64,000 nt of DNA from Pycnopodia helianthoides (lineage: Eukaryota; Echinodermata; Asteroidea; Forcipulatida; Asteriidae). Positions 24,703-64,000 of the stretch are shown in pieces. Location: positions 15,416,009 through 15,480,008 of the forward strand of contig CM063247.1 of NCBI GenBank assembly GCA_032158295.1, given 5' to 3'. The first letter of the stretch is position 1, and each line of letters opens with the position of its first letter. Under the pieces are notes generated by a model. That model had not been told where the DNA came from. It did no database searches and saw only the letters and a program-made list of their open reading frames with translations. The translations under genes were made by a program, and so were the position numbers.

Positions 24703-24851
24703 CTAGGGAGTAGAGCACTGCGCTCTCAGGGCTTCGACCTGTCTCTTGGTCTTGCTGCTCAGGATCGTTGCATCGTTGCCCAGGTAGAACTGTCTTGCTT
24801 TGCCCTTGCCGATCAGAACATTACTTAGATGACCAATGGCGATAAACCGAT
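24703..24851 (-). CDS. Mosaic gene, last exon: C-terminal third of NTR domain
   Basis: After acceptor cag (24,852-24,854) the exon reads [40 protein letters not shown] and ALRAQCSTP, then TAG. The pattern F-x-x-x-G, Q-Y/F-x-L and a final C near the end matches the tail of netrin-like domains, most closely the type in secreted frizzled-related proteins. Confidence 0.92.

Positions 24852-64000: not shown

Follow-up and report, generated by a model that had tools for sequence, protein, structure and literature searches.

A2M proteins act by cleavage of a bait region, collapse of the molecule, covalent tethering by the thioester and clearance via the receptor domain. Several inhibitor families are combined in other proteins, among them WFIKKN, which carries Ig and Kazal/follistatin domains together with WAP, Kunitz and NTR, and papilin, in which TSP1 repeats and an ADAMTS spacer accompany Kunitz and Ig domains. 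CPAMD8 is said, in work of Li et al. from 2004, to be an A2M with a C-terminal Kazal domain. Our literature search, with subscription journals mostly and preprints wholly outside its coverage, returned no description of an A2M that carries Kunitz, WAP or TY1 modules. Database models already include A2Ms fused to several inhibitor families, and this fusion is undescribed in the literature searched.

Here we analysed a stretch of 64,000 nucleotides from the genome of the sea star Pycnopodia helianthoides (the window; all positions are counted from its first letter). We found that it almost certainly holds the 3' half of a gene for a secreted A2M with a modular inhibitor tail. If true, a single protein family unites in one secreted molecule the two chief modes of protease control, trapping that is irreversible and blockage of the active site, and its inhibitor modules change between echinoderm classes.

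Modules and exons of the tail

The minus strand of the window carried the whole module string, running from position 64000 to a stop codon that ended at 24703. To splice the string, 33 exons were joined using a simple splice model together with reading by eye, the borders being predicted from the DNA alone. AG stood before and GT after all 31 internal exons, and 29 of them were multiples of three in length with phase-1 borders. The two exceptions, the EGF exon E7 (58631-58501, length 131) and the Kunitz exon K2 (56289-56078), each showed one single-base frame break that placed the domain halves in different frames, and both were read in two frames with an X between. Single-base breaks are a usual assembly error. 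The breaks might otherwise mark the copy in the assembly as a damaged allele or pseudogene, which is improbable, as the other 29 internal exons were open and conserved.

Pfam searches on the spliced tail protein of 1691 residues matched Kunitz in four stretches (E 2.6e-65), EGF_CA in four (E 5.9e-32), WAP in nine (E 5.8e-89) and in two further ones (E 2e-15), TY1 in three (E 1.2e-47) and EGF in four (E 1.1e-15). The cysteines were complete, with six in each of the four Kunitz domains, eight in each of the 11 WAP domains, and six in each of the three TY1 domains and in each of the exons E4-E7 and EG1-EG4. By Pfam and cysteine counts, and for the NTR by profile comparison through relatives, the modules named in a preliminary description of the window were recovered, order and coordinates included, on the minus strand, which that description does not name.

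Exon E1 (63880-64000, running past the right edge of the window) holds the end of a receptor domain and a Pro-rich linker, with 28 of 39 aligned residues identical to residues 1590-1632 of the Asterias rubens protein P0121. It is followed on the same strand by the first half of a split EGF (E2, 63240-63296; 15 of 19 residues identical to P0121 and 18 of 19 to a further relative, P0002) and by the second half (E3, 62350-62436), recognized by alignment to relatives. Four calcium-binding EGF exons matched by EGF_CA come next, namely E4 (61507-61641), E5 (60390-60530), E6 (59464-59598) and the frame-broken E7. The Kunitz domains were matched by Pfam and their P1 residues read by motif search: K1 (56740-56934) has Lys at P1, K2 and K3 (55362-55565) have Arg, and K4 (54105-54311) has Gly.

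Nine WAP exons, each recognized by Pfam and its cysteines, follow at 52159-52314 (W1), 51616-51792 (W2), 50196-50348 (W3), 48074-48253 (W4), 44419-44574 (W5), 43489-43653 (W6), 42740-42904 (W7), 41231-41395 (W8) and 40462-40617 (W9). The first thyroglobulin type-1 domain (T1, 39455-39661) was matched by Pfam Thyroglobulin_1 and was identical to P0121 in 55 of 69 residues. It precedes a (VGPEP)n repeat exon (38605-38820) with 12.3 copies of a 15-bp unit, which is echoed by the tail GPEPVGP of W4 and has matching VGPEP-type stretches in P0002 and P0121. Four Notch-type EGF exons matched by Pfam EGF stand at 36635-36751 (EG1), 35090-35206 (EG2), 33785-33898 (EG3) and 31555-31668 (EG4), followed by the TY1 exons T2 (30647-30853) and T3 (29652-29858), again matched by Pfam. 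Two last WAP exons, W10 (28919-29071) and W11 (27657-27821), were matched by Pfam WAP and showed 41 of 51 and 41 of 55 residues identical to P0121. The string ends with the start, middle and end of an NTR-like domain on exons N1 (27121-27195), N2 (25262-25396) and N3 (24703-24851, with the stop codon), where 20 of 25, 38 of 45 and 40 of 49 residues were identical to P0121 and the C-terminus read CSTP in both proteins.

T3 is a copy of T2 within a 1-kb tandem duplication (29604-31591, 97.3% identical) that contains the doubled TY1 exon and part of EG4, and T1 was about 89% identical to T2/T3 over some 300 bp. Tandem repeats were also seen elsewhere in the gene. The 3' end of W10 and its splice donor are multiplied into 53-bp and 179-bp arrays (27983-28963), and a 44-bp repeat has 18 copies at 48450-49249. 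A 91-bp array (50528-50893) includes the last part of another WAP exon. A. rubens and P0002 have this exon complete, located between their W2 and W3 counterparts, and the matches listed for the window included no other piece of it at that place.

An A2M core upstream of the window

We examined 50 kb on each side of the window for missing parts of the gene. Residues 1-1599 of P0002, searched by tblastn against the Pycnopodia genome, gave 33 pieces from 104,373 to 64,973 in the frame of the window, on the same strand as the tail. The pieces were 48 to 100% identical and in order, except for one repeated piece of 22 residues. Coverage of P0002 had short gaps, such as residues 1469-1507, where a local search gave nothing convincing. 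Exons E1 to N3 come after these core pieces on the same strand of one contig.

The upstream content comprised a leader, MG domains, a bait region, the thioester motif GCGEQ, a His residue and a receptor domain. The first exon, about 40 kb beyond the right edge of the window, is by reading hydrophobic and leader-like. Bait-region exons were found, the variable one only 48% identical to P0002, and Pfam matched the A2M_BRD domain in relatives. Three TED matches lay 6-11 kb past the right edge on the same strand; one of them counts a TGA, which by reading belongs to the intron that immediately precedes the exon. The GCGEQ motif stands in an exon that reads PTGCGEQNMLG, and the exon after it reads KLCHKAMS. 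The exon containing E1 carries the last residues of the receptor domain and the Pro-rich linker. Its upstream part reads LFLTEMVQLSCPEEP and matches P0002 from about residue 1599, where the Pfam receptor domain of P0002 ends at 1605. Since this exon starts with the last receptor-domain residues, the A2M core and the tail are linked by a single exon.

The predicted product thus has the features of the A2M/thioester superfamily (MG, A2M, TED and receptor domain). Its predicted full order is leader, MG domains with bait region, thioester domain, receptor domain, Pro-rich linker, split EGF, four cbEGF, four Kunitz, nine WAP, TY1, VGPEP spacer, four EGF, two TY1, two WAP and the NTR-like domain, and the predicted gene would span roughly 80 kb. 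As the preliminary description had proposed, the upstream exons point to one gene, most likely encoding one polypeptide, with several inhibitor families and a leader-like first exon. That description had also taken the Kunitz/WAP/TY1/NTR string for a whole protein, whereas the string is the C-terminal tail of an A2M whose core lies outside the window, and the A2M core upstream makes WFIKKN and papilin the wrong relatives. A coral protein, P0194, does combine Kunitz, WAP, TY1, Kazal and NTR with no listed A2M, and would be a precedent for a stand-alone inhibitor scaffold of the WFIKKN/papilin type. For the present string such a scaffold is extremely improbable: at the right edge, the linker and the end of an A2M receptor domain share one exon, the same strand carries upstream an A2M core that begins with a leader-like exon, and three echinoderm classes have A2M and tail in one model.

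A second A2M gene and genome-wide occurrence

A second A2M gene lies on the same minus strand and starts 8 kb downstream of the stop codon of the tail gene. Its signal-peptide-like first exon (16635-16724) was 77% identical to residues 1-31 of P0229 from A. amurensis, and tblastn with P0229 and others placed further exons at 8278-8078, 7550-7383, about 6425-6363 and 5889-5704. The next exon found by tblastn stands at 130-234, and the gene continues to the left of the window, where P0229 matches extend for 25 kb at 45-92% identity. By these matches, a predicted tail-type A2M and an A2M akin to the EGF-tail type stand head to tail.

Genome-wide, we found at least 24 TED matches in seven places. 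The tail-type gene held 4 of the 25 Kunitz matches listed and 11 of the 47 WAP matches listed, and among the matches listed it was the only one of the seven TED places with Kunitz and WAP within. The listed Kunitz or WAP match nearest to the TED of the second gene was the tail-type gene's own, about 49 kb away. For the other five TED places, no Kunitz or WAP was present within 1 Mb among the matches listed.

Related proteins in echinoderms

The closest relatives join an A2M core and an inhibitor tail in one polypeptide. P0002 (2850 aa) was 68% identical to the spliced tail protein over 59% of it, and its EGF, Kunitz and WAP modules follow A2M, TED and receptor domains. It stands on a contig of 10,452 nt, against about 80 kb for the genomic span, and is therefore most likely a transcript. 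The A. rubens locus LOC117296122, a database model named uncharacterized, encodes core and tail together in P0121 (3394 aa) and P0122 (3243 aa). Pfam matched A2M, TED, A2M_recep, EGF_CA, Kunitz and WAP in both P0002 and P0121, and TY1 also in P0121. Most relatives bear database names suggestive of predicted gene models, so that the A2M-tail fusion might be a gene-prediction artefact in which two neighbouring genes were merged. This is very unlikely, because P0002 on its contig should be a transcript, the joining exon is found in the Pycnopodia genome itself, and the same fusion occurs in asteroid, crinoid and echinoid models.

When P0121 and P0002 were compared with the window by tblastn, the exons that occur singly (E1-E6, K2-K4, W1-W4 and the last domain) matched in order, with E1 matching the linker directly after the receptor domain. 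For the repeated WAP and TY1 exons the best matches were interchangeable copies in the relatives, and strict colinearity is therefore not shown for them; a global alignment put every exon in order, yet it forces exon order and is thus no test of colinearity. E7 had no listed match from P0121 and only an out-of-order one from P0002, K1 had a counterpart in P0002 and none in A. rubens, and W10 and W11 had counterparts in A. rubens but not in P0002, where TY1 is absent as well. EG1-4 had no match from P0121 or P0002 among the matches listed. In these parts the content of the transcript varies or is unproven.

It is accordingly possible, if somewhat doubtful, that EG1-4 together with T2 and T3 are alternative or silent exons outside the main transcript. 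The missing matches of EG1-4 and the origin of T2/T3 in a nearly identical tandem duplication would fit this, but all six exons are bordered by AG and GT, are divisible by three in length, have their full cysteines and contain no stops, and in the urchin protein P0223 two EGF-type repeats likewise stand a short way ahead of the C-terminal domain.

The A. rubens protein resembles the predicted Pycnopodia protein in its A2M core, linker, four EGF_CA, VGPEP stretch, three TY1, two last WAPs and C-terminal domain, in largely the same order. It differs in having three Kunitz domains and, in the X1 form, 17 WAPs, more than in the window, in the alternation of TY1 and WAP and in the lack of counterparts to K1 and EG1-4. 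Further A2Ms with inhibitor tails were found in two crinoid and two urchin models. The tail of the crinoid Anneissia protein P0109 consists of two EGF, two Kunitz, WAP and TY1, then mixed EGF, antistasin, WAP and TY1, and later four EGF, WAP and the last domain; that of Antedon P0238 is similar, with TY1 later. The urchin tails (P0223 and P0224, LOC757285 / LOC446192) carry WAP, TIL and TY1, and Pfam matched no Kunitz in either protein. Crinoid and urchin proteins thus share with the window a tail of WAP, TY1 and EGF and a related C-terminal domain, and differ from it in the antistasin of the crinoid tails and the TIL of the urchin tails. The sea cucumber Apostichopus japonicus has a protein (P0126, 3183 aa) made almost entirely of Kunitz-like units and a few WAPs.

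The order of the modules had been proposed to be apparently undescribed. We found no named family with the same order, and to this extent the proposal stands, but a largely colinear tail exists in A. rubens. Nor is the composition restricted to this genome, as the A2M tail of the crinoid Anneissia starts with EGF-Kunitz-WAP-TY1 and ends with EGF-WAP and a related last domain, and coral P0194 unites Kunitz, WAP, TY1, Kazal and NTR outside an A2M.

The C-terminal domain

Pfam NTR (PF01759) gave no match above cut-off in the last domain of the window. Among 14 C-termini scanned with Pfam at E up to 1, two matched NTR, the sequence from the window not being one of them: the amphioxus A2M-like P0248 with 33.6 bits, above the cut-off of 21.9, and Amphiura P0228 with 17 bits (E 0.0053), below it. 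Four other echinoderm C-termini in the same scan showed no NTR match. A profile of 12 echinoderm C-termini (the window included, P0228 and P0248 left out) was then compared with the NTR domain of the amphioxus A2M and reached a probability of 97, while 20 column shuffles of this profile reached at most 1.55. Against amphioxus and coral NTR together the value was 88, and against coral NTR alone only 9 (shuffles at most 1.13). For three asteroid C-termini, comparison with the combined domains of coral, amphioxus and Amphiura yielded 95, a value that is not fully independent because Amphiura P0228 is itself an echinoderm A2M.

Comparisons with PDB gave no meaningful match for the family profile of this domain and no sequence match for the amphioxus NTR alone. 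Searched as sequences against PDB, the 14 C-termini returned a single RNA polymerase subunit (E 0.73), taken as a chance match.

The preliminary description had named an NTR at this end. Pfam did not match NTR in the window, and profile similarity through relatives leads us to take the domain as a putative divergent NTR. The amphioxus A2M with its C-terminal NTR suggests that a complement-like end is older than the inhibitor tails. The tail may have grown by phase-1 exon shuffling between the receptor domain and the NTR-like end of an ancestral A2M-NTR protein.

Inhibitor modules across echinoderm A2Ms

We searched with the A2M core of P0121 among proteins from about 1,867 aa up and obtained 96 proteins, a list that is not a census because only candidates sharing most words were scored. 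By reading of their Pfam domains, 13 of the 96, CPAMD8 proteins excluded, combine A2M with Kunitz, WAP, TY1, TIL, antistasin or Kazal; 12 of these come from echinoderms and the remaining one is P0002. Three further rows were CPAMD8-type fish proteins with a Kazal domain.

In some of these proteins the inhibitor modules stand elsewhere than in a tail. The brittle star protein P0228 (Amphiura) has WAP, TY1, three Kazal, WAP and Kazal from residue 558 to about 930, the sea cucumber protein P0257 (Holothuria) has three TY1 from residue 587, and S. purpuratus P0239 has one TIL at 544-599, in each case before the matched end of the bait domain. In P0240 and P0242 a TIL stands at a comparable position (505 and 554), by custom profile only. 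From Pfam domain positions (P0228, P0257 and P0239), custom profiles (all five) and sequence reading, the modules of P0228, P0257 and P0239 appear to lie inside the bait region.

A tree of the part from A2M to receptor domain was computed for 28 sequences and rooted on three CPAMD8 rows, which formed one branch (SH-aLRT 100) separate from the echinoderm A2Ms. Fifteen echinoderm A2M rows, P0002 counted, fell into one fork of 16 rows (SH-aLRT 98), the sixteenth being a long and unreliable Anopheles row. The six inhibitor-tail rows and the six bait-labelled rows, among which P0266 is labelled from its Pfam list alone without domain position, showed one change each against each other (support 92). 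The inhibitor-tail rows were not a clade by themselves, and several forks of the tree remained open.

These observations tentatively suggest, with the balance lying slightly against it, that echinoderm A2Ms are combinatorial inhibitors with two insertion slots, a tail between receptor domain and NTR-like end or the bait region, into which Kunitz, WAP, TY1, TIL, Kazal or antistasin modules were swapped. If true, an inhibitor serving as bait or standing beside it would hold the protease at the trap and create a trap with built-in class specificity.

Possible mode of action

Overall, the best explanation is an A2M with a modular inhibitor tail that works as a two-mode inhibitor, a reading that we consider probable as a whole. 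The two-mode mechanism itself, trapping together with active-site blocking, is predicted from domain content and is favoured by a narrow margin. When a protease cuts the bait region, the A2M core would collapse and the thioester would tether the enzyme covalently. The His in KLCHKAM aligns with what we take to be the catalytic His of complement C3, which makes the thioester react with hydroxyls, and tethering to hydroxyls is therefore likely. The tail modules would reversibly block the active sites of serine proteases, perhaps also those of cysteine proteases, or may instead dock proteases beside the bait. Both modes could act together, with the tail blocking some proteases and holding others near the bait.

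A basic P1 with a small P1' is the signature of trypsin inhibitors, and many WAP and TY1 domains are without protease inhibition. Three of the four Kunitz domains in the window have Lys or Arg at P1, K4 with its Gly being the exception. The series in P0002 is the same (Lys, Arg, Arg, Gly), A. rubens has Arg, Arg, Gly, and both crinoid proteins have Arg and then Leu. This retention of a basic P1 in asteroids and crinoids argues for inhibition and against the view that the same protein mainly serves as an opsonin, an adhesive component or a skeletal-matrix protein, its Cys-rich tail providing stability and binding. Such a role, which we regard as rather unlikely, would fit the His, as it suggests a C3-like thioester. 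It would also fit the A2M-like proteins of echinoderm skeleton and adhesive, by which a structural or adhesive function is possible: in the portions of these reports available, A2M-like proteins are described from the Patiria skeletal proteome (PMC5460417), from sea star footprints (Sfp9, 1562 aa; PMC9382459) and from urchin adhesive (PMC10057474, PMC7037938). Those portions identify no tail-type protein, however, and Sfp9 as given there has about half the length of P0121.

Comparison with described systems

The predicted inhibitor-tailed A2M resembles WFIKKN and papilin in uniting several inhibitor families in one secreted protein and, for WFIKKN, in a putative NTR; both differ from it in having no A2M. 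Pfam gave no match to Ig, Kazal or TSP1 at E 0.1 in the window tail, and none to the ADAMTS spacer. Membership in either family was rejected, as their defining domains were unmatched in the tail. Starfish papilin-like proteins are separate entries (P0007 and P0008). The uncharacterized Montipora capricornis protein P0194 also contains Kunitz, WAP and TY1 domains as well as a Pfam NTR, and differs in the presence of Kazal and Ig, in another order and in having no A2M among its listed Pfam domains.

Complement C3, C4 and C5 have a TEP core, a thioester and a C-terminal NTR (C345C). The gene shares the core and the thioester, and its last domain would be the counterpart of C345C if it is an NTR; it differs in the inhibitor modules that stand before this NTR-like domain. 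P0002 and P0121 showed no anaphylatoxin match at E 0.01, and an identity with complement C3 was rejected on this ground.

CPAMD8 is alike in joining an A2M/TEP core with an inhibitor domain on the C-terminal side. Pfam matched no Kazal in the window tail, P0002 or P0121, and orthology with CPAMD8 was rejected, as the CPAMD8 rows form their own branch in the tree of 28 sequences. CPAMD8 thus stands apart by its single inhibitor family, by a FAMeT domain and by its separate branch, while the Pycnopodia gene would place Kunitz, WAP and TY1 modules together behind one A2M core.
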